From Myxococcus stipitatus (GTDB taxonomy: Bacteria; Myxococcota; Myxococcia; Myxococcales; Myxococcaceae), in contig NZ_CP147913.1 in NCBI RefSeq assembly GCF_037414475.1, forward strand, positions 6,694,001 to 6,758,000: a stretch of 64,000 nt of DNA. Direction: 5' to 3'. The notes under the pieces are model-generated. The model was not told where the DNA came from. It did not search any database and was given only the letters and a program-made list of their open reading frames with translations. A program made the position numbers and the translations under genes. Position 1 is the first letter of the stretch, and every line of letters starts with the position of its first letter. Positions 48,214 through 57,974 of this stretch are shown piece after piece.

Positions 48214-49098
48214 ATGGAAAAACGCACCGACTGGTATGAGCACCCGGAGTACTACGAGGCCATCTTCGGCACGGACACGGTGCGCGAGATGGACTTCCTC
48301 CAGGCGTTGAGCGCGCGGCATGGCACGGGAGGCTCCAGGTGGTTGGAGCCCGCGTGTGGCGCGGGACGGCTGGTCGAGGAGGCGGCCCGTCGGGGGCTGA
48401 AGGTCACCGGCTACGACATCTCCGAGGCGATGCTCGAACATGCGCGCAAGCGGCTGACGCCCGCGGAGCGCCGCCGGGTGAAGCTGGCTCCGTCCCGCAT
48501 GGAGGAGTTCTTCGTGCCGGAGTTGGAGGGGCAGGTGGATGTCGCGCACAACCTGGTCTCCACCTTCCGGTATCTCGACAGCGAGGCGGCGGCGCTCGCG
48601 CACTTGAAGGGGACCCGGCGACTGCTCAAGCCGGACGGGCTCTACGTGTTGGGCTTCCACCTCACCGACTACGCGAGGACGACGCCCGAACATGAGCGTT
48701 GGCTGGGGCAGGTGGGGAAGGACAAGGTGGTCTGCAACACGCACGAGGGATTGCCGGAGCGGCGGGCCCGGCGCTCACCCATGCGCAACCGGCTGCGAAT
48801 CACAGGGCCGGGCAAGGACTGGCTCATCGAGACCACGTGGTACTTCCGCACGTACGACAACGCGCAGGCACGCAAGCTCTTCCGTGCCGCGGGGCTGAAC
48901 GTCGTGGCCGAGTACAACTTCGACTACGACCTGGAGACACCCGAGAAGCGAGGCAGCCGCAGGTTGGACCGGGTCTTCGTGCTGAAGCCAGAGCCTGTCT
49001 CGGCCGATGCACAGCCGCGACTCGAGGCCCCCGAGGCCGGGCCGACGCCCGTGAAGAAGCGGGCCTCGGCGAAGACGCCTGCCCGTCAACGACGCTGA
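48214..49098 (+). CDS. Class I SAM-dependent methyltransferase
   Basis: 294 residues from ATG 48214; the longer frame upstream is a shadow of the preceding gene. Motif I WLEPACGAGRLVEEAARRG near residue 43, motif II KVTGYDISEAML and a motif-IV-like HNLVSTFRYLDSE. The C-terminal 40 residues are Lys/Pro/Ala-rich. The substrate is not predictable. It is convergent with the TfuA gene and separated by a hairpin, so probably not part of that system. Confidence 0.87.
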   Translation: MEKRTDWYEHPEYYEAIFGTDTVREMDFLQALSARHGTGGSRWLEPACGAGRLVEEAARRGLKVTGYDISEAMLEHARKRLTPAERRRVKLAPSRMEEFFVPELEGQVDVAHNLVSTFRYLDSEAAALAHLKGTRRLLKPDGLYVLGFHLTDYARTTPEHERWLGQVGKDKVVCNTHEGLPERRARRSPMRNRLRITGPGKDWLIETTWYFRTYDNAQARKLFRAAGLNVVAEYNFDYDLETPEKRGSRRLDRVFVLKPEPVSADAQPRLEAPEAGPTPVKKRASAKTPARQRR

Positions 49099-49112
49099 GC
49101 AGAGAAGGCGCG

Positions 49113-49137
49113 GCGGCCCCGGAGGCGCAGGGGCCGC
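49113..49137. terminator. Bidirectional hairpin between methyltransferase and tfuA
   Basis: Perfect 8-bp arms GCGGCCCC / GGGGCCGC with a 9-nt loop, between two convergent stop codons. Confidence 0.6.
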
Positions 49138-49153
49138 TGATGCAGGCCGGACC

Positions 49154-50506
49154 TCAGGCCCCAGCGCCGGCCTTCGCGAGGACGTAACACAGCTCCCGCA
49201 GCGCGGCCCGGCGCATGGAGGCCACGTCCGGGAAGCCCTCTTCCCGGGCGGCTTGCTCGAGTGCCCCTGGCACCATCCGGCCCTGGTGCTCCTCGAAGTA
49301 CCAGGCCCAGAGTGATGGCTCGGTGATGCCCGCGTCCTCGAGTCGCGGCATCGACAGCCCCGCCTCCTCGAGCACCGCCTCTTTGTCTCGTGCGCGGAGC
49401 AGCAGCTCACCGTACTGGCCCGTCAGTCGCAGGTGGTCCGCCAGGTGGCGCAGGACATCGGGCTCGAAGAGTGTCTCCACCCATCGCACGTGGGACTCAT
49501 CCCGGAGCAGGCGCTCGGGGTCGTCGACGTGTTGCTCTGCTTTCCACCGCTCGAAAGTCTCGGGGGTGAGCTGCCGCTCCTGGCGCAGCGTGGCCTCCGT
49601 CACGTGGAGCTCCACCGCATCGGGAACACGCCCCAGCCTCCGAGCCTCCTCCACCGCGAGCGCCCGCGCCATGCTGGCCCGCCGCGCGTCCTTCAGGCCG
49701 CCGCGCAGGCGCAGCTCATCGAGCAGTGCCTCCGGCGCCACGCCCTCCGAGGGGTTCCCCGTGGGACGCAGTCGCTGTCTGCCCGCGCGCCGCCGCGCTT
49801 CCTCCCAGGCATCCGTGTGTTGAAAGGGGAAGCGCGTCTCCTTCGGCGCAAGCCCCTCCTCGATGCGTGCCCGAATCGTCTGCAACATCGCCACGGCATC
49901 CGCGCGCTTCGCGTCCACCCGGCCGCGGGGCAACCACGCCTTGAGCGCCGTCAGCTCCACCTCGGGAAGTCCCTCGCGAGCACCTCGCGTCAACAAGGTC
50001 GGCCAGGCGCGCTCCACGTAGAACAGCGACTTGGCCAGCCGTTCGAGCCCGGCCCGCGTGCCATCGCTCACCACGCCGGCCGCATGTGCGGCCGACAGCG
50101 TGGCGCGGAGGTTCACCATGGCTTCGGACAGCGGGCGCCAGCCGTCCTCCTCGCTCGCGTGTGCCACCGCCACTTCGTCATCGTCCTCGAGCACGCCTCG
50201 ATGGAAGTCCTCGAAGATGGCGCCGACACCCTCCATCCCGAAGGAGACCAGCTCCGAGGCCCGCAGCGCACCCATGCTCGCCGCGCCGAAGACATGGATG
50301 CCTTCCGACATGGCCCAGAGGATCTCCTTGTGCCACACGGCGGGCACATGCTCGAAGAAGCCGTCGATGATGCCCAGGGCCACCGGCTTCTCGAGCGTCG
50401 CCCGGTAGATGTCCCCTTGCTGCACGGGAGGCAGATACACGGCCTCGAGCTCCTGGCGGGCGTCCTCGGGGCGCAGCGTGGGGCCGGTGAAGATGAACAC
50501 CCTCAT
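49154..50506 (-). CDS. tfuA: TfuA-domain protein
   Basis: 450 residues. The first 130 residues are a clear TfuA core: VFIFTGPTLRP, PPVQQGDIYRAT, GIIDGFFEHVPAVWHKEIL, HVFGAASMGALRASEL and DDDEVAVAHAS. The remaining 300 residues are helical and unfamiliar. TfuA proteins work with YcaO enzymes, supplying sulfur for thioamide formation in methyl-coenzyme M reductase and in some ribosomal peptides. Its ATG overlaps the YcaO stop (ATGA at 50503-50506), so the two are made together. It is the last gene of the minus-strand set. Confidence 0.9.
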   Translation of the reverse strand: MRVFIFTGPTLRPEDARQELEAVYLPPVQQGDIYRATLEKPVALGIIDGFFEHVPAVWHKEILWAMSEGIHVFGAASMGALRASELVSFGMEGVGAIFEDFHRGVLEDDDEVAVAHASEEDGWRPLSEAMVNLRATLSAAHAAGVVSDGTRAGLERLAKSLFYVERAWPTLLTRGAREGLPEVELTALKAWLPRGRVDAKRADAVAMLQTIRARIEEGLAPKETRFPFQHTDAWEEARRRAGRQRLRPTGNPSEGVAPEALLDELRLRGGLKDARRASMARALAVEEARRLGRVPDAVELHVTEATLRQERQLTPETFERWKAEQHVDDPERLLRDESHVRWVETLFEPDVLRHLADHLRLTGQYGELLLRARDKEAVLEEAGLSMPRLEDAGITEPSLWAWYFEEHQGRMVPGALEQAAREEGFPDVASMRRAALRELCYVLAKAGAGA

Positions 50507-51768
50507 GTCCCAATCCCTCGAATGATTCGCAGCGCGCGCGGCCCGGGGACATAGCCTGGAGCTTCATGCGTGGGCTCCAGCCCAGGGACCACCACGCGCA
50601 CCACGGGAATGCCCAGCTCGGGCTTCGTCAGCTCCACGGCGACCACTTGCGTCACACCCGCGGCGCGCAGCTTCGCCAGCACCCACGCGAGGTCTTCCTC
50701 CATGGTGCTCGCGTCCTGATGGGGCGCGTCCTGGAAGCGGCGCACCGGTTTCTCTTCTTGCAGCCGCTTCCGGAGCCGGTCCGCCGCCACCCCTTCTCGT
50801 GCCTCTTCATACGCCTTGCGGTGCAGGTCATCGCGAGCGCCGCAGATGCGAGTGAGCCGGCTCTGCGCGGCCTCCGTCAGCGCGCGCAGCAACGCCACTC
50901 CCCGCGAGGGGTGACAGCCCATGCCCCCGGCGACGGCGACGGGCCGCGGGGACTCGCGCTCCTGGTCGACGATGTAACAGGTGAACGCGGGCACACCCAC
51001 GTCGCTGGTCGTCTCCCAGACGCCCACGGCCACACCGGCACGTGCGTAGGTTTCCAGCACCTCGCGGCACGCGGAGTCATCCACCGACGACAGGTCCAGC
51101 CGCGTCCCTGCTTGCGCCTGCTCTCCGCGGACATGCCAGAGCGCGGTGGCATCCCGCTCCACCACTTCACACAGGCCATGCAGGGTGGCCTCGAGCACAT
51201 GATTCCCCGAGGCCAGCCCGTTGCTGCTCATGAGGAACGCGCCGCTCCCGGTGGGCAGGGGCAGCGTGAAGTCGGTGTGCACCAGGTCGAACGGCAGCCA
51301 CAGCGGGCCACCGCCCAACAGGTCCACGCCCTCCACCCACAGCATCCGCCAGTTGGGATGGAACAGGCTCACCGACAGGCGAGGCAGTCCCGCCACGTCG
51401 ACCATGGGCGAGCGGAAGCGCAGCTCGTTGTACGTGGCCAGCTTCAAGGGCAGGGTGATGTGCTCGGCGTGGAAGCCCTCCACGGACTCCATCAGTCCCG
51501 ATGCCTTCGCGGCCGCCAGCGTGAGCCCCTTGCCTTGGGACACCGCCAGCGAGCGCGCGTTGGGCCGCGTCACCATCACCACGGGAATGCCGAGGGTATC
51601 CAGGCCCGTGACGTTGGCGATGCGGGTGATACCGAGGACGGGCATCAGTCGCCGCACACGCTCCAGGGTCTCCTCGGGGGAGACCGTCCGGTGCGTGCCT
51701 TGGCGGAAGTGCTTGGCGGTACCGGGGGCGGAGCCGACGACGGGGGAGTCCACGGAGTCTGTGCGCAT
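50503..51768 (-). CDS. ycaO: YcaO-family ATP-dependent cyclodehydratase/thioamidase-like protein
   Basis: 421 residues. YcaO nucleotide-binding motifs are visible: KASGLMESVEGFHAE near residue 88, LEATLHGLCEVVERDA near 193 and ALTEAAQSRLTRI near 285. There is no Pro-rich C-terminal end as in azoline-forming enzymes; it ends YVPGPRALRIIRGIGT. YcaO enzymes activate peptide backbone amides with ATP, and those paired with TfuA typically install thioamides. The start overlaps the stop of the unrecognised gene upstream (TGATG at 51766-51770). No short precursor peptide gene was found beside it. Confidence 0.92.
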   Translation of the reverse strand: MRTDSVDSPVVGSAPGTAKHFRQGTHRTVSPEETLERVRRLMPVLGITRIANVTGLDTLGIPVVMVTRPNARSLAVSQGKGLTLAAAKASGLMESVEGFHAEHITLPLKLATYNELRFRSPMVDVAGLPRLSVSLFHPNWRMLWVEGVDLLGGGPLWLPFDLVHTDFTLPLPTGSGAFLMSSNGLASGNHVLEATLHGLCEVVERDATALWHVRGEQAQAGTRLDLSSVDDSACREVLETYARAGVAVGVWETTSDVGVPAFTCYIVDQERESPRPVAVAGGMGCHPSRGVALLRALTEAAQSRLTRICGARDDLHRKAYEEAREGVAADRLRKRLQEEKPVRRFQDAPHQDASTMEEDLAWVLAKLRAAGVTQVVAVELTKPELGIPVVRVVVPGLEPTHEAPGYVPGPRALRIIRGIGT

Positions 51769-52418
51769 CAGGGCTCGGTGCCAGGGATGGGAGGGCTGGG
51801 GTCCTGCTCGGCGGGACGCAGCTTGGTGCTCGGGGTATAGCTGAGGAGGATGCTGTTGAGGTTGAGCAAGAAGCAGGTGATGGGCTCGGCCCTCGACGCT
51901 TCGGGCGTCGCGCGGCCCTGGGCGGCTTGCTCGACGGGATACGGAACGTTGGGGATGTTGGCCACCACTGCTTCATTTCGAAGCAGCGTGTGCAGCGCGG
52001 GATTCAAGCGCTTGGAGTTGATGGGGAACTTCTCCGCCTTCATCCACATCTCCGTCGTCACCCAATAGACATGGCCGTCCGGTGCGAAGAGGAGCAGGTC
52101 CGACTCATCCACGGAGACCGTCGTCTTCGCCTCGAGCTGGGGCCAGCGGGCATCCTCGGACTTCAAGGTGGCGCACAGGACGGAGGGGACGGGCTCGGAG
52201 CGCACACCCTTCACCTCGACAAAGCAGGTATCCGGCTGCTTGACGATGACGATGGCGCCCTCGGGACCTTTCACGTGGAAGGTCACCTGGCTCGTCACGT
52301 TTCTCACCTCGCCGGGGTGACGCTCGGGAACGCCCATCACCATGAGGTTCGTGGTGAAGCCCTCCAGGATGTTCACCCGGTCCGGCTTGAAGAAGATGTA
52401 CGAGTATCGCTCCGCCAT
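51768..52418 (-). CDS. Unrecognised protein coupled to YcaO-TfuA
   Basis: 216 residues from ATG 52418, with GAGG upstream; GTG 52424 is alternative. There is no signal peptide or membrane helix. The first 125 residues look beta-rich (IFFKPDRVNILEGFTTNLMV; VTFHVKGPEGAIVIVKQPDT; VSVDESDLLLFAPDGHVYWV). The C-terminus is less ordered, with a PITCFLLNLNSILLSYTP segment and a Pro-rich tail. I do not recognise a family. One-nucleotide overlap with ycaO implies a dedicated partner: substrate, recognition subunit or chaperone are possible, none shown. Confidence 0.75.
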   Translation of the reverse strand: MAERYSYIFFKPDRVNILEGFTTNLMVMGVPERHPGEVRNVTSQVTFHVKGPEGAIVIVKQPDTCFVEVKGVRSEPVPSVLCATLKSEDARWPQLEAKTTVSVDESDLLLFAPDGHVYWVTTEMWMKAEKFPINSKRLNPALHTLLRNEAVVANIPNVPYPVEQAAQGRATPEASRAEPITCFLLNLNSILLSYTPSTKLRPAEQDPSPPIPGTEP

Positions 52419-52435
52419 GTGCACCTCGTGAGAGC

Positions 52436-52456
52436 GCCGCGGGGTCCACCCGCGGC
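52436..52456 (-). terminator. Hairpin between the kinase gene and the YcaO operon
   Basis: Perfect 8-bp stem GCCGCGGG / CCCGCGGC with a 5-nt loop, 25 nt past the kinase stop and 18 nt before the start of the 216-residue protein gene. It could terminate or attenuate read-through. Confidence 0.55.
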
Positions 52457-52480
52457 AAGGGAAGGGTGCATCCGCTCCGG

Positions 52481-55400
52481 CTACAGGTAACCGAGCCGCC
52501 GCGCCACGTCGCTCGCCTGGAGCAGTGCGCTCCGTGCGTCCGGGTGCTCCAGCGCGGCTTGGAGTGGCTGCGTGAGTTCATCCGGGAGTCGCTGCTGCTG
52601 GTGCGCGAGCATCGCGCGGGCCTGCTCCAGCGCCTCGTGCACCTGGCCTGCTTCCAGCTCCACGGCCAGAAGGGGCCAGAGCGCCAGCCATTGAAACGGA
52701 TAGACGAGTGAGAGGGATTGCCACAGGCGGAGCGCCTCCGTGGCTTCCTCCCGAGCCTGGGCCCGGTCCTGGGCCCTCCACGCCACCCAGGCGCGATGGG
52801 CATGTGCGGCCCCCGCATAGTCCGCCATGCCGGAGCGGCTCGCGAGCTCGAGGCTCCGCGCGGAGGACTCGTCCACCGCCTTCACCTGACCGCGCAGCCG
52901 GAGGATGACGGTGAGGTACGTGAGGCAGCGTGTCTGCAGCGTCACGTCCCCCAGCCGCTCGGCTCCCTTCAGCGACTCCTCCATCCAGGACTGGGCTTCG
53001 TCCAGGGCGCCATGGAAGAGCAACACCATGGCGACCACGCACCGGGCTCCCGCATGCTCCGCGTCCCCCTCTGACTCCAGCGCGGCTTCCGCGTAGGCCC
53101 GGGCGTGGGCCACGGTTTCCTTTGAAGCTTGATAACGCTCGCTGCGCAGTTGCATCTGAACCAGCGAGTTGAAGAAACGCGCACGCTGTAGCGGCGTGCC
53201 ATGGGCCCGCATCACCGGGCGGACGCCCTCGACCAACGCGCGCATCGCGTCGAGTTGCGCCAGCCAATAATGGACGGTGATTCGCTCACCCTGAAGTTGA
53301 ACCCACTCATGCCACCATGCGGCCTCGACGTGCCCGGGCGTGGAGGAGACATCGTCTGGCATCGGGCCCAGCTCGGCTTGAGCCTGGGCGTAGATGCGCA
53401 GCGCTTCCTCATTCTGATGGTGAGTCTGCAAGGACTTGCCCACCTTCCGGAGCACGTTGGCGCGACGGACGCGCTGGCTTTGCTCGATTCGTGCCAGGGC
53501 TTCCTGAAACGCCTGACGTGCATCGTCCTGTCGACCGGTGAGTGCGAGCACCTCGCCCAGTCCTTCCCAGACCATGTCCAGGGCGAGCGGAGGCGCGTTC
53601 GCGGGGGACGCGTGCGCGTTCGTCTCGGACGCCGAGGCTTCGCGCACGGCGGCTTCATAGAAGGTGATGGCGTCGCCGTTCGCGTAGGCCGCGCGCGCCG
53701 CGTCACCCGCACGTGCGAACCAGTGGCTGGCGCGGTCGGGGACCTCCGCGCGAGACCAGTGATGCGCGAGCCCCGCGGCATGCGGCAGATGGCTCGAGGC
53801 CGCTCCTGCTTCGCGCAGCTCCAGGCCTTCAGCGCAGCGGTGATGCAGTGAGCGGCGCCGCTCGGTGGAGATGCGCGCGTAGGCCACCTCGCGCAGCTTG
53901 TCGTGAACGAAGCGCAGCCGCCCTCCACCGGACTCCTCCAGGACCTGCCGGCGGCGAAGCTCCTCCACGGCCTCCAGCCCCGCGCTCTCCGGCAGCGCGG
54001 CGGTGGCGAGCAGCAGCTCTCCATCCAGTTCGCGCCCGAGCACGGAGGCCACCTCCGCCAGCGTGCGCCCATCCGCGCCCAGGTCGGCCAGCCGCCGCTC
54101 GATGAGCTCGGCGATGCTGCTGGGGAGGGGGAGGGGACGGCTGCCCGCGCTGCCCTGGGCCTCGAAGAGCCACTCTCCCGACGGCGCGCGAAAGAGGAGT
54201 CCCGCGTCGATGGCGGCGCGCAGGTATTCGGCGATGAAGAACGGATTGCCGCTGGTCTCCCGCACCAGCGCGTCCACGAAGGGGCCAGGCACCTCGCGCA
54301 GCGCCAGCATGCCGCGCACCATCTTCCCCGCGCTGGTCGCATCCAGCCGCCCCACCTCCACCCGCACCGCATCCGGCGCGCCCACCACCGCGCGCAGCGA
54401 CTCTCCCGTCTCATCCATCCGGTACGTGCCCACCAGCAGCACGGGCCGGGACGACAGATGCCGGGCATCCAGCTCCTGAAGGAAGCTCACCGTCAGCTCG
54501 TCCGCCCACTGAAGGTCGTCCAGCACCAGGAGCAGCGGCTGCACCTCCGCGAAGGCGCGGAGCGTCTCCCGCAGCGCGGCCAGCACGCGCAGACGTGCCT
54601 CGGGGGCGGGCAGGGGAGGGGGCTCGGGTTGCTCGCGCTGACCTGGGAGCTGCGCCAGGGATGGCTCGTACGCGGCGAGCACGCGCCCTCGCGGGCCCAG
54701 GAGCCGCGATGTCTCTTCCGCGCCTCGTTCATTGCAGCGGTCCGCGACCGAGAGCAGCAACGGACGCAGCGGATGCAGCGGCGCCGCGTGGAGCTCCACG
54801 CCCCCCGTGCCCACGGGAACACACTCGCCCGTCACCACCGCCATGCGCCGCCACGCCGCTTCCGAGGCCAGCTCCAACGCGAGCCGCGTCTTGCCCGCAC
54901 CGCTCTCCCCACCGAGGAAGACGCGGCCGCCCTGGCCTCGAGCCGCCGCGTCCAGCGCATCCATCAGCTTGCCGAGCTCTCCCACGCGCCCGGCGAGGTC
55001 CGGCCGATAGAGATAGGCCGGCGTGCGCGGCGCCGTGGTGGCTCCTTCCTCACCTTCCTTCGCGCCCAGGGACTCCAGCGCGGACGACACATCCTCCGCA
55101 TAGCCCGGCCGGTCCTGCGGGCGCTTGGCGAGCATCTTCAGGACCAGCGCATCCAACGCCGCGGGCAGCCCCTCCACTCGCAGCGACGGAGGCACCGGTG
55201 TCAGGTGCAGGTGTTGATGCGGCAAGGGCCCTTCGCGTCCCGGAATGAAAGGCGGCCTGCCGGTGAGCTGCTCGTAGAGGATGCACCCCAACGCATAGAG
55301 GTCCGCGCGGGCGTCCACGTAATCGCCACGCAGTTGCTCTGGCGCCATGTACGTGTCGCTGCCCACCACCGCGCCGCTGACGTCGAGCGTCTCGCGTCCC

Positions 55401-55936
55401 CTCGAGCCGCCAAAGCGCGCGGCGATGCCGAAGTCCACGAGGACCGGTGTCCCATCCGGCCGGAGGAAGACGTTCTCCGGCTTCAGGTCCCGATGCACCA
55501 GCCCGTTCGCATGAAGGAACGCCAGCGCCGAGCACAGCCGCCGCATCACCGTGAGCGTTTCATGCAGGCGCGTCGCGTCCAGCGGCCCCGGCGGCGGAGC
55601 GGTGGTCGCGCTTCGCAGCGTCTGGCCCCGGAGCAGCTCCATCGCGTACCAGGGCAGTCCGTCCGTGACGCCCTCCGCGACGATGCGCACCACCCCTGCG
55701 TGCCTCAAACGTCGTAATGCGTGAATTTCCCGACGGATGCTGGCGAGGGGGACTTCGGAGGCCGCGCGGACCGTCTTCACCGCGACGGCCTCGCCGGTGT
55801 TGGGGTCCCAACCTCGGTAGACAACGCCCATGCCCCCTTGGCCGAGCACTTCCAGGAGCTCGTAGGGGCCCATCGTCGCACCCACACCGGGGAGGCTCGG
55901 GAGCCTCGATGGCGCAGTCATAGGGGCTGGGAGCAT
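52481..55936 (-). CDS. Ser/Thr kinase - AAA ATPase - TPR regulator
   Basis: 1151 residues from ATG 55936. Kinase domain (residues about 24-285): LGQGGMGVVYRG, VAVKTV, LVHRDLKPENVFL and VLVDFGIAARFG. It is followed by a predicted ATPase with Walker A LGGESGAGKTRLALELA near 339 and Walker B-like LLLVLDDLQWADEL, then about 450 residues of TPR-like helices. It resembles PknK/MalT-type regulators; related kinase-ATPase-TPR proteins have been annotated in TOMM peptide clusters, and this one lies upstream of YcaO-TfuA. No cyclase domain or HTH is evident. A longer frame upstream of 55936 is not protein-like. Confidence 0.9.
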   Translation of the reverse strand: MLPAPMTAPSRLPSLPGVGATMGPYELLEVLGQGGMGVVYRGWDPNTGEAVAVKTVRAASEVPLASIRREIHALRRLRHAGVVRIVAEGVTDGLPWYAMELLRGQTLRSATTAPPPGPLDATRLHETLTVMRRLCSALAFLHANGLVHRDLKPENVFLRPDGTPVLVDFGIAARFGGSRGRETLDVSGAVVGSDTYMAPEQLRGDYVDARADLYALGCILYEQLTGRPPFIPGREGPLPHQHLHLTPVPPSLRVEGLPAALDALVLKMLAKRPQDRPGYAEDVSSALESLGAKEGEEGATTAPRTPAYLYRPDLAGRVGELGKLMDALDAAARGQGGRVFLGGESGAGKTRLALELASEAAWRRMAVVTGECVPVGTGGVELHAAPLHPLRPLLLSVADRCNERGAEETSRLLGPRGRVLAAYEPSLAQLPGQREQPEPPPLPAPEARLRVLAALRETLRAFAEVQPLLLVLDDLQWADELTVSFLQELDARHLSSRPVLLVGTYRMDETGESLRAVVGAPDAVRVEVGRLDATSAGKMVRGMLALREVPGPFVDALVRETSGNPFFIAEYLRAAIDAGLLFRAPSGEWLFEAQGSAGSRPLPLPSSIAELIERRLADLGADGRTLAEVASVLGRELDGELLLATAALPESAGLEAVEELRRRQVLEESGGGRLRFVHDKLREVAYARISTERRRSLHHRCAEGLELREAGAASSHLPHAAGLAHHWSRAEVPDRASHWFARAGDAARAAYANGDAITFYEAAVREASASETNAHASPANAPPLALDMVWEGLGEVLALTGRQDDARQAFQEALARIEQSQRVRRANVLRKVGKSLQTHHQNEEALRIYAQAQAELGPMPDDVSSTPGHVEAAWWHEWVQLQGERITVHYWLAQLDAMRALVEGVRPVMRAHGTPLQRARFFNSLVQMQLRSERYQASKETVAHARAYAEAALESEGDAEHAGARCVVAMVLLFHGALDEAQSWMEESLKGAERLGDVTLQTRCLTYLTVILRLRGQVKAVDESSARSLELASRSGMADYAGAAHAHRAWVAWRAQDRAQAREEATEALRLWQSLSLVYPFQWLALWPLLAVELEAGQVHEALEQARAMLAHQQQRLPDELTQPLQAALEHPDARSALLQASDVARRLGYL

Positions 55937-55973
55937 AGCGACACCCCCTGGTGCCTCCCATCTGCGTCGCCTT

Positions 55974-56013
55974 GGGACGCAGCCGCGTCCCAGTTGGACG
56001 CGAACTGGGACGC
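55974..56013. promoter_or_regulatory. Competing hairpins / operator cluster upstream of the kinase gene
   Basis: Three alternating copies of one 7-mer: GGGACGC (55974-55980), GCGTCCC (55985-55991) and GGGACGC (56007-56013). The centre copy can pair left (7 bp, 4-nt loop) or right (11 bp, GCGTCCCAGTT with AACTGGGACGC, 7-nt loop). It starts 37 nt before the kinase ATG on the minus strand. It could be an attenuator-like leader or three binding sites for a dimeric regulator. Apart from this and the possible -24/-12 promoter, 55937-56249 holds no supported gene. Confidence 0.6.
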
Positions 56014-56064
56014 TGGGAGACCCCTTTCCGAGCCAACCCCTTGAAAAGACGTAAAACAGGCCGT

Positions 56065-56080
56065 TGGCACGAGTCGCGCA
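56065..56080 (+). promoter_or_regulatory. Possible sigma-54 (-24/-12) promoter
   Basis: TGGCACGAGTCGCGCA has GG and GC separated by exactly 10 bp and a perfect TGGCACG left half; the right half reads GCGC instead of TTGC. It lies 170 bp upstream of the sigma-54 activator gene. Confidence 0.4.
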
Positions 56081-56249
56081 TGGGGTTTTGGCGCGGCGCC
56101 GCGGGAAACCGGGTGCCCAGCCGTCAGCGAGGTTCGGGAACGCGGAAGGAGGGGCCGCTCCTTCCGCGTTCTTCATCTCCGCTACACTGCCTCCCCTCCG
56201 ATGCGGCCCTGGCGGGTACTCTCGGATGGCACCGGACGGAGGCGAGTGG

Positions 56250-57974
56250 ATGCACCAGGAGATGCCGCAGCTCATGAGCGCGCTGCGGGGGGCGAAGGAT
56301 TTCGAGACAGCAGCCGCCACCACGTTGAAGCGCATGTTGGCCGTGGCGCAGGACGCCGTTGCGTCCAGTCGGTACGCAGCCAGGGCCCGCGTGCTTCGCG
56401 GCATCGTCCATTTGCGCCCCGGTGAAGCCTATCGGCGCCTGGCCGCGCTGGATGTGGGTTCAGCCGAGATTACGGATGCCAGTGTGGGCACGCCGTTCTT
56501 CACGTCGGCCACGGCATGGCGGGCGGTGGTGGAGCACCGGTGCGCGGTGTCCATCGACGTGAACGTGGGCACTGTCCAGCCGCATGCGCCGGATGCGCCC
56601 GTGACGGGCGACCCGGGACTCGCGGGCTTCCACAGCAACGAGAGCCGTCAGCGCTTCCTGGGCCGGCATGCGACCCACGTTTGTGTGCTGCCCCTGCGCA
56701 CGCCGGGCGGAAGCATCGAGGGGATGATCTCCGTGGAGGCGGACTGCCTGGCCGCGATGGGGCAGGAGTTCGTCTGGCGCGAGGCGGGGGATCAACTCCA
56801 ACTGCTCGCGGACGTGGCCGCGCCGTACCTGGCGGGACTGCCGCAGCGGCCCGTGGCCACGCCGGAGGTGGACGAGTTCCTTCCCGTGGTGGGCCGCTCC
56901 ATGGCGGAGCTGCTCCCCATCCTGCGGGTGTTCGCGCTGCAGGACGAGACCATCCTCATCAGCGGCGCGACGGGCGCGGGCAAGTCCCGGCTGGCGCGCT
57001 GGTGCCATGAGCGCTCCAACCGCCGGGCCAAGCCGTTCGAGACCTTGGACCTGGTGACGGTGCCCGAGGACCTCCAGATGGCGGAGCTCTTCGGCTGGAA
57101 GAAGGGCGCCTTCACGGGCGCGGTGCGCGACGCTCCCGGCAGCGTGGCGCGCGCGGACGGCGGCACGCTGTTCATCGACGAAATCGACAAGCTGTCGCTC
57201 AAGGCGCAGGCGGGGCTCCTGCATCTGTTGGAGTCCCGGAGCTACCGCCCGCTGGGAGAGGGCACCGGTGAGCGCCAGGCGGACGTGCGCTTCATCATCG
57301 GCACCAACGCGGACCTTCACGCCGAGGTGCGCGCGGGCCGCTTCCGCGAGGACCTCTACTACCGCGTCAACGTGCTGCCCGTGCGCATGCCGGCGCTGCA
57401 GGAGCGTCAGGACGAAATCCCGCTCTGGGCGCAGTACATGGTGAACCGCCGCCACCGCGAGCGCTCTCCCGAGGGCAGCGCGCGGGTGACGCAGGACGCG
57501 GAGCGGCTGCTCGTCGGGGGCACGTGGCCGGGCAACCTGCGGCAGCTCGACAACATCGTCCGCCGCGCCTACACGCTGGCCATGGTGGAGCACGCCGTCT
57601 CCGGTGGCGAGCTGGTGCTGCACGAGAAGCATGTCGCGCGGGCGCTCGACTACGAGCAGGCCCCCGGTGGCAAGCCGCTTCCGGAGGCGCTGCGTGCCGC
57701 CGCGCAGGCGTTCGTCGCGGAGGCGCGCCGTCGCAACGCGCCCCTGGACCTGGACCTGGCGGACGCGTTTCGGGGCCTGGTGCTGGGCGTGGCCATCCGC
57801 CAGGTGGGCCGCGATGATGGCTTCAAGCTGCTGGGCCGCGAGAGCCTGGTGAAGAACCGCAACCACCACAAGGCGCTCAAGCGCGAGTTGGAGAAGGTGG
57901 AGGCGCTCTACAAGGCCCTGGGCGAGGACGCATCGCCCTTCGCGGACCTGCTCTCGGAGGACGAAGCGGCCTGA
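56250..57974 (+). CDS. Sigma-54-dependent activator with N-terminal GAF-like domain
   Basis: 574 residues from ATG 56250, 7 nt after GGAGG. The N-terminal 220 residues look like a GAF sensor (THVCVLPLRTPGGSIEGMIS). The AAA+ part has Walker A SGATGAGKSRLARW near residue 238, the sigma-54 loop GAFTGA near 287, Walker B GGTLFIDEIDKLS and the RFREDLYYRVNVLPVRM arginine-finger region. The C-terminus has GLVLGVAIRQVGRDDGFKL but no convincing Fis-type HTH. It is divergent from the kinase-YcaO-TfuA set and may control it or respond to the same signal. Confidence 0.88.
   Translation: MHQEMPQLMSALRGAKDFETAAATTLKRMLAVAQDAVASSRYAARARVLRGIVHLRPGEAYRRLAALDVGSAEITDASVGTPFFTSATAWRAVVEHRCAVSIDVNVGTVQPHAPDAPVTGDPGLAGFHSNESRQRFLGRHATHVCVLPLRTPGGSIEGMISVEADCLAAMGQEFVWREAGDQLQLLADVAAPYLAGLPQRPVATPEVDEFLPVVGRSMAELLPILRVFALQDETILISGATGAGKSRLARWCHERSNRRAKPFETLDLVTVPEDLQMAELFGWKKGAFTGAVRDAPGSVARADGGTLFIDEIDKLSLKAQAGLLHLLESRSYRPLGEGTGERQADVRFIIGTNADLHAEVRAGRFREDLYYRVNVLPVRMPALQERQDEIPLWAQYMVNRRHRERSPEGSARVTQDAERLLVGGTWPGNLRQLDNIVRRAYTLAMVEHAVSGGELVLHEKHVARALDYEQAPGGKPLPEALRAAAQAFVAEARRRNAPLDLDLADAFRGLVLGVAIRQVGRDDGFKLLGRESLVKNRNHHKALKRELEKVEALYKALGEDASPFADLLSEDEAA

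Follow-up and report, generated by a model that had tools for sequence, protein, structure and literature searches.

Four adjacent genes of Myxococcus stipitatus, at positions 49154 to 55936 of a 64,000-nucleotide stretch of contig NZ_CP147913.1 (the window; contig positions 6,694,001 to 6,758,000), probably form a self-contained modification cassette. The YcaO and TfuA-like proteins encoded there would thioamidate a conserved core in the product of the preceding gene, here called the partner, with a kinase-ATPase-TPR protein as dedicated regulator or licensing factor. Sequence comparison makes the 216-amino-acid (aa) partner the most likely substrate of the YcaO-TfuA pair, and the chemistry is most likely backbone thioamidation within the core. 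The original prediction for this DNA was of a peptide- or protein-modification system with a companion kinase, and this is supported; the kinase belongs to the system by association, as seen for 36 of 36 full-length relatives. It had left the substrate as either the partner or something encoded elsewhere, and of these two the comparison across genomes points to the partner.

The four minus-strand reading frames are uninterrupted, bearing out the earlier description. The overlaps of 1 and 4 base pairs (bp) that had been reported among the last three genes, and the position of the kinase-ATPase-TPR gene upstream on the same strand, agree with the coordinates. The genes and the elements of the partner are as follows.

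49154..50506, minus strand: TfuA-like protein, 450 aa (PF07812, 157.1 bits, E 2e-46)
50503..51768, minus strand: YcaO, 421 aa (PF02624, 286.4 bits, E 4e-85)
51768..52418, minus strand: partner, proposed substrate/precursor, 216 aa from ATG (conserved relatives; AlphaFold model)
51831..51878, minus strand: core TCFLLNLNSILLSYTP, partner residues 181-196, proposed modification site (predicted disordered tail)
52044..52100, minus strand: hairpin element DLLLFAPDGHVYWVTTEMW, partner residues 107-125, proposed leader-like recognition element (alignments A1 and A2, model strands)
52107..52418, minus strand: immunoglobulin-like (Ig-like) domain of the partner, approximately residues 1-104 (profile match and Foldseek)
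52481..55936, minus strand: serine/threonine (Ser/Thr) kinase-AAA ATPase-TPR protein, 1151 aa (Pkinase E 4e-43, AAA_16 E 4e-23)

The TfuA and YcaO genes overlap by 4 bp, the YcaO and partner genes overlap by 1 bp, and 62 bp separate the end of the kinase gene from the start of the partner. An alternative partner start, the upstream GTG at 52424, would give 218 aa. The host genome is 10.3 Mb in one contig and has a single PF02624 match, the YcaO of the cassette. No short precursor peptide was noticed at the M. stipitatus locus, where no exhaustive search for one was made. No transporter or peptidase was found among the four genes using Pfam and NCBIfam, thus a cellular protein fits better than a secreted peptide.

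Architecture and conservation of the partner

Neither Pfam nor NCBIfam gives a match to the partner at E<=1. Its N-terminal Ig-like domain has a profile match to LigA (8gyr, E 1.1e-5), and the best Foldseek matches of its AlphaFold model are LigA and LigB (E 5e-7 to 6e-5). After the domain comes the hairpin DLLLFAPDGHVYWV, and a variable linker then leads to the core TCFLLNLNSI, close to the C terminus. In the model the strands of the hairpin are residues 108-111 and 117-120. The predicted local distance difference test score (pLDDT) is above 70 for most of residues 1-147 and below 50 for residues 149-197 and 200-216.

The core is identical in all 16 aligned orthologues, which are 31-87% identical overall. 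This alignment, A2, contains 16 of the 17 partner relatives; the one in genome G103, at a contig end, was left out. Based on the first 14 of these sequences, the ratio of nonsynonymous to synonymous change (pN/pS) is 0.185 for the core (residues 180-196), 0.54 for the hairpin and helix, 0.85 for both the Ig-like domain and the tail, and 1.04 for the linker. The core also has lower synonymous change, with a pS of 0.238 against 0.42-0.51 elsewhere, possibly due to codon bias. Having the strongest constraint in the protein and being predicted to be disordered, the core resembles a linear functional site. The idea that the partner is an ordinary fast-evolving protein was rejected, as the hairpin and core are constrained and the remainder is much less so.

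Association of the core with YcaO and the kinase

The hairpin and core recur together as a module. A profile of alignment A1 identified 38 module matches in 24 of the 145 genomes of the order. Thirty-seven are no more than 8 kilobases (kb) from a YcaO gene of the same subfamily, and the remaining one lies beside the kinase gene where its contig ends. Module copies away from such loci were sought and none were present among the 38 matches (E<=0.001, 145 genomes of the order). A sample of 190 genomes from the phylum, overlapping with these, gave the same 24 genomes. Profile A1 misses the most divergent substrates, of the L090, L214 and L215 type, which were found by motif beside YcaO or the kinase, and orphans of this type could escape it.

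For the kinase, 48 matches at E <= 1e-120 were identified in 96 genomes of the family, of which 36 are full-length and 12 partial. Those with a query end at 1120 or later were counted as full-length, and the G062 copy is cut at its start by a contig end. Every one of the 36 has a frame with the core motif on the same strand within 3 kb; the script tally counted frames that stay open for some 80 codons or more on that strand, and the scan was limited to the retrieved stretches. Chance clustering of the kinase with the substrate is rejected by this result. That the kinase belongs to the system is supported by this gene association. In G063, a single kinase gene lies between two sets of substrate, YcaO and TfuA genes.

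It is very improbable that the kinase is merely a neighbour in a genome rich in Ser/Thr kinase genes. The host genome does have 106 matches to the kinase, and a quarter of the strong matches in the family (12/48) are partial, ending at about residue 763-797; three of the partial ones, L216-L218, were read and have no core motif and no YcaO among the called genes. Against this, the association of the full-length relatives holds across varied places and gene orders, including one without YcaO. The next-best match in the host genome is partial and 34% identical. The kinase motifs HRDLKPEN and DFG and the Walker A sequence GESGAGKT are present, and a TPR_12 match is just under the cut-off. The protein, whose catalytic motifs look intact, is likely a sensor-regulator acting on the enzymes or on the substrate.

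Among the YcaO matches listed, from which places and identities are taken, 40 are at least 56% identical, a cut chosen by the analyst, and 34 of these have a core-motif frame within 8 kb. Of the others, two are cut by contig ends (G103 and contig C329 of G046, whose other halves may lie on contigs C270 and C407), three have a short hairpin peptide, and one, at L098, has neither.

Modules, divergent relatives and short peptides

The cysteine and the first asparagine of the core are invariant across the 29 modules of alignment A1, which are the M. stipitatus module and 28 others. Of the 31 modules whose domain match is strong, A1 omits two, L140 and L123. The first profile was built without seven divergent modules (L089, L090, L095, L099, L100, L102 and L144), and L144 was restored in A1. 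Divergent relatives keep the core, and most also keep the hairpin, on other bodies; the core variants include SCYLLNLSTL, TCYVINLGYI, TCYLLDLQSL and SCYLLDLRVL.

Two modules are present in one protein at L087, L088, L121, L145, L209, L210 and L211, and L101 has two tandem one-module genes. The duplicated units of hairpin and core would appear to resemble multi-core precursors. The AlphaFold model of the two-module L121 protein has a mean pLDDT of 45 (8 sequences), and two hairpin and helix units appear in it. In the second modules of L209 (MGCLVNL), L210 (MGCLVNL) and L211 (MGVLVNL) there is a glycine at the position of the core cysteine, and the L211 second module has no cysteine at that site at all.

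Near the substrate there is an extra gene of 116-385 aa, its family unassigned, at L087, L088, L096, L101, L121, L144, L145 and L209-L211. A Pfam identity for this gene in the two-module loci was sought, with no match over the cut-off in the four tested. An NmrA-like gene is present in L088, L121, L145 and others, the Pfam comparison covering that of L121.

Some relatives have a short peptide at the substrate position. In the myxobacterial loci L103, L104 and L143 these are 81-91 aa, start with MKELQ[VI]VG[ED]DG and have a similar hairpin. In the Azospirillum loci L254, L255 and L257, a 64-65 aa peptide with the sequence [IV]RGADGRL is encoded just upstream of YcaO. The YcaOs of the Azospirillum chromids are 56.5-57.3% identical. 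The Azospirillaceae loci L254 (4084-9251), L255, L256 and L257 offer a simple system for chemistry tests.

The candidate regulators of these loci also differ. At L143, a cyclase-AAA-TPR gene is directly upstream. At L254, a guanylate-cyclase-AAA-TPR gene is further upstream with an opposite-strand gene between, and at L257 a gene annotated with a cyclase domain is separated by transposase-annotated and other genes. The nearest kinase-like gene in L103 and L104 is on the other strand and is 28-29% identical. These few cases provide a lead that the type of regulator varies with the type of substrate.

A module-only hairpin profile ranked the three short myxobacterial peptides first among 613 frames (E 0.018, 0.034 and 0.57). 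The same profile ranked the Azospirillum peptides second, fourth and fifth among 1077 frames (E 0.74, 0.88 and 2), and none of its matches in the remaining proteobacterial loci and the group-B loci fell below E 5. The likeness of the hairpins in modules and short peptides is suggestive and no proof of homology.

Enzymes and proposed chemistry

Residues 21-398 of the YcaO align with MJ1094 (PDB 6pe3, E 1.2e-39). Loss of the catalytic YcaO residues had been named as grounds for doubting the system, and this is not borne out: the ATP-site blocks GKG, NGLASGN...E..ERDA and GCH...LRALTE.AQSR align with those of MJ1094, as judged by eye. The TfuA has an archaeal-type match over residues 3-213 and a C-terminal extension. 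With its YcaO and TfuA genes adjacent, the locus has the arrangement of TfuA-associated YcaO clusters.

By homology, the YcaO would activate a backbone amide in the core in an ATP-dependent manner, and the TfuA would deliver sulfide that it takes from a ThiS-like carrier in thiocarboxylated form. At least one amide of TCFLLNLNSI may in this way become a thioamide. Three ThiS-family matches are present in the genome, none of them at the locus, and these proteins could be the sulfur carriers. The hairpin may be recognised by the enzymes and dock the substrate. The Ig-like domain would be the carrier or the functional body, presenting the core on a flexible tail, and the kinase-ATPase-TPR protein may regulate or license the substrate or the enzymes.

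The same substrate could instead be cyclodehydrated, with the YcaO converting the invariant core cysteine to a thiazoline (azoline) and the TfuA having another role. Azoline formation at cysteine is the classical YcaO reaction, as stated for thiazole/oxazole-modified microcins (TOMMs) in the abstract of PMC2887384, and the cysteine is invariant across A1. This alternative is nonetheless unlikely. In the characterised cases TfuA accompanies thioamidation. There is no E1-like match in the four genes using Pfam and NCBIfam, and the SagD-type model scores 130.5 of 219.25 bits against the YcaO, below the cut-off. The glycines in the second modules of L209-L211 count mildly against it, though these copies may be degenerate or, in L209 and L210, shifted by one. 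The presence of TfuA, the lack of an E1-like match and the glycine for cysteine in three second modules together make cyclodehydration less likely than thioamidation. The one model encountered for an E. coli-type YcaO, NF040716 (named for S12 in NCBIfam), scores 34.1 of 700 bits.

Other YcaO and TfuA genes are present among these bacteria. A TfuA is found in 107 of the 145 genomes of the order. Another YcaO, approximately 36% identical, is beside TfuA in many of them, whether the cassette is present or absent. In L110-L113 there is a kinase-like gene of 1269-1301 aa, a gene of 887-986 aa, a YcaO (34-36% identical) and a TfuA, and L112 has a further 749-aa YcaO protein nearby.

Gene order, gain and loss of the cassette

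Of the 145 genomes of the order, 17 have a relative of the partner, and 15 of the 17 are among the 27 genomes of the same genus. Sixteen relatives are directly upstream of YcaO and the other, in G103, adjoins a contig end. These loci preserve the order kinase - partner - YcaO - TfuA. The partner diverges much faster than the enzymes; at L132 the identities are 86% for the kinase, 55% for the partner, 88% for the YcaO and 83% for the TfuA. The YcaO relatives at 86-87% identity are from named Myxococcus species.

More widely, the order kinase - variable gene(s) - YcaO - TfuA recurs across many loci of the family, and in L209-L211 the order is YcaO - TfuA - kinase - extra gene - substrate. The four-gene arrangement is not chance. 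It had been proposed that the system should be doubted if YcaO-TfuA were never associated with the partner or the kinase in homologous loci; this association is conserved across the relatives.

Nine of the 12 Myxococcus genomes that lack the cassette were read individually. In eight of these (L235-L238, L241, L242, L244 and L245; the exception is L229) the flanking methyltransferase and sigma54-activator genes are approximately 335-345 bp apart. As the flanks adjoin in such genomes, the approximately 7-kb locus is a unit that is gained or lost whole. The sigma54-activator gene is present in all 27 Myxococcus genomes at 90-100% identity and is therefore part of the flank, not of the cassette.

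48214-49098, plus strand: flanking methyltransferase gene
49099..56249, no strand: span of the discrete cassette (its flanks are neighbours in 8 of the 9 cassette-less Myxococcus genomes examined)
56250-57974, plus strand: flanking sigma54-activator gene

Repeat proteins in proteobacterial relatives

In four of the five non-myxobacterial loci, YcaO is followed by a protein whose C-terminal end consists of tandem pentapeptide repeats of the VSGAK or VSGGR type. The fifth, L023, has too little sequence after YcaO.

L022, 11941-12873: repeat protein
L024, 11405-11857: repeat protein
L025, 9179-9700: repeat protein
L026, 3144-3683: repeat protein

Before the repeat protein are YcaO-TfuA and a protein of approximately 420-467 aa with an HEVGH motif, which in L022 has weak metallopeptidase matches below the cut-off. 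Judged by its repeats, the tandem-repeat protein could be a multi-core precursor.

Weighing of the proposed system

It is tentatively possible that these loci share one scheme of kinase-gated whole-protein thioamidation. One YcaO-TfuA subfamily, present from Azospirillum to the myxobacteria, would recognise a portable DGxxY hairpin, which the myxobacteria would have combined with a C-x-L-L-N-L core, in one or two copies, on swappable carriers, Ig-like or other. The Ser/Thr-kinase-ATPase would license the modification, and a nucleotide-cyclase-ATPase would replace the kinase in the short-peptide loci. If so, a cellular protein, and not a secreted antibiotic, would carry the thioamide as a signalling mark or structural switch.

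Several observations count against the proposed modification of the partner and its wider extension. The partner is long and partly folded, unlike the known short thioamitide precursors, and the AlphaFold alignments are shallow (16 sequences for the partner and 8 for the L121 protein). The hairpin pattern, composed after the sequences were seen, is present in 28 of 37 substrates and peptides, compared with a single hit among 546 other called genes, which is the L104 short peptide, and is missing from the other 9; the set is without L091 and L094, where the gene caller missed the substrate genes. The likeness found by the hairpin profile is weak, with an unrelated frame (E 0.28) outranking all of the Azospirillum peptides, and the Indioceanicola peptide is not found by it. 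The L025 repeat protein matches the Pfam family Pentapeptide above the cut-off (25.5 against 20.2 bits). As this is a structural family, these repeats need not be cores, and the Paracoccus relative L258 is without repeats of the VSGAK/VSGGR type. The McrA-type models are the best NCBIfam matches of both enzymes by bits, and their cut-offs are not reached (TIGR03266 244.1 of 365 bits for the YcaO, NF033432 211.8 of 235.2 bits for the TfuA). The kinase scores 261.9 of 705.75 bits with TIGR03903, the TOMM kinase/cyclase fusion, which is also below the cut-off. With these cut-offs not reached, the cassette is not the McrA pair, a SagD/TOMM azoline system or a member of the TOMM kinase/cyclase family.

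In G077, the kinase and substrate pair (L215) is more than 100 kb from any YcaO among the matches listed, and the YcaO of L098 in turn has neither substrate nor peptide. The split leaves L215 approximately 1 Mb from the YcaO-TfuA pair of L098. The region upstream in L098 contains a fragment, AVTCGALNLKSF, that resembles a core.

This separation from the nearest YcaO of the subfamily among the matches listed, and a size of 216 aa with an Ig-like domain, larger than usual precursors, would suit a partner that is a recognition or scaffold subunit resembling a ribosomal-peptide recognition element (RRE), with the true substrate encoded elsewhere in the genome. It is improbable that the partner has this role. 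In a scaffold one would not expect repeated modules, an invariant motif within a tail predicted to be disordered, short peptides taking its position in relatives, or rapid change away from the hairpin and core. The predicted fold is also Ig-like, and not the winged helix of RREs. The partner as substrate remains the preferred explanation.

Comparison with known systems

Since 2015, McrA and short peptides have been found as substrates of TfuA-associated YcaO proteins. Thioviridamide-type compounds are among the thioamitides of such clusters. In that year the substrates of these proteins were stated to be unknown, in a passage of PMC4603692. Broad mining of TfuA-associated YcaO clusters is described in PMC8120280, where Corallococcus is among the dominant families; 'kinase' and 'Myxococc' do not occur in its main text. 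In the literature searched on YcaO, TfuA, thioamides and myxobacteria, as far as the texts were available, neither a precursor with an Ig domain and this core, nor the duplication of its modules, nor a tie to this kinase was found.

The cassette shares with the thioamitide and other TfuA-associated YcaO clusters, as outlined in parts of PMC8120280, the adjacent YcaO and TfuA and an encoded substrate nearby. It differs in having an approximately 216-aa Ig-domain candidate substrate with a C-terminal core and a companion kinase-ATPase-TPR gene, and in lacking a transporter or peptidase among its four genes. A thioamitide-type short precursor with leader and core was not found at the M. stipitatus locus, where the candidate has 216 aa; short peptides are seen in relatives only (L103, L104, L143, L254, L255 and L257).

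The YcaO-TfuA pair that makes thioglycine in McrA also acts on a protein and not a short peptide, according to sections of PMC5589413. The candidate substrate here is unrelated to McrA, is encoded in the same cluster and has its core on a predicted flexible tail. In E. coli, YcaO thioamidates ribosomal protein uL16, another protein substrate; this system has no TfuA and recognises tertiary structure, unlike the one here, as described in parts of PMC13063428, where the role of TfuA in sulfide delivery is also described.

The NHLP-Burk TOMM clusters, which have a large Ser/Thr kinase (PMC2887384, in part), and TIGR03903 share with the cassette a YcaO-type locus with a kinase-ATPase, and they are alike also in having precursors with domain-derived leaders. 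The differences are that the partner has no NHLP or Nif11 match, that TfuA is present and that TIGR03903 is below its cut-off. For the dehydrazoles, portions of PMC10676384 describe a Cystobacter fuscus YcaO cluster with a Ser/Thr-kinase homologue and another cluster with YcaO adjoining TfuA. Their peptides undergo serine dehydration and azole formation, and the likeness is drawn from the description of the clusters.

Among these, the cassette is, by homology of its enzymes, a plausible member of the thioamidating YcaO-TfuA kind. With this locus there is a specific candidate for a small protein substrate, whose core motif fits on one line and which has three companion genes. Protein thioamidation beyond McrA and uL16, and a possible link between a kinase and YcaO chemistry, become directly testable.

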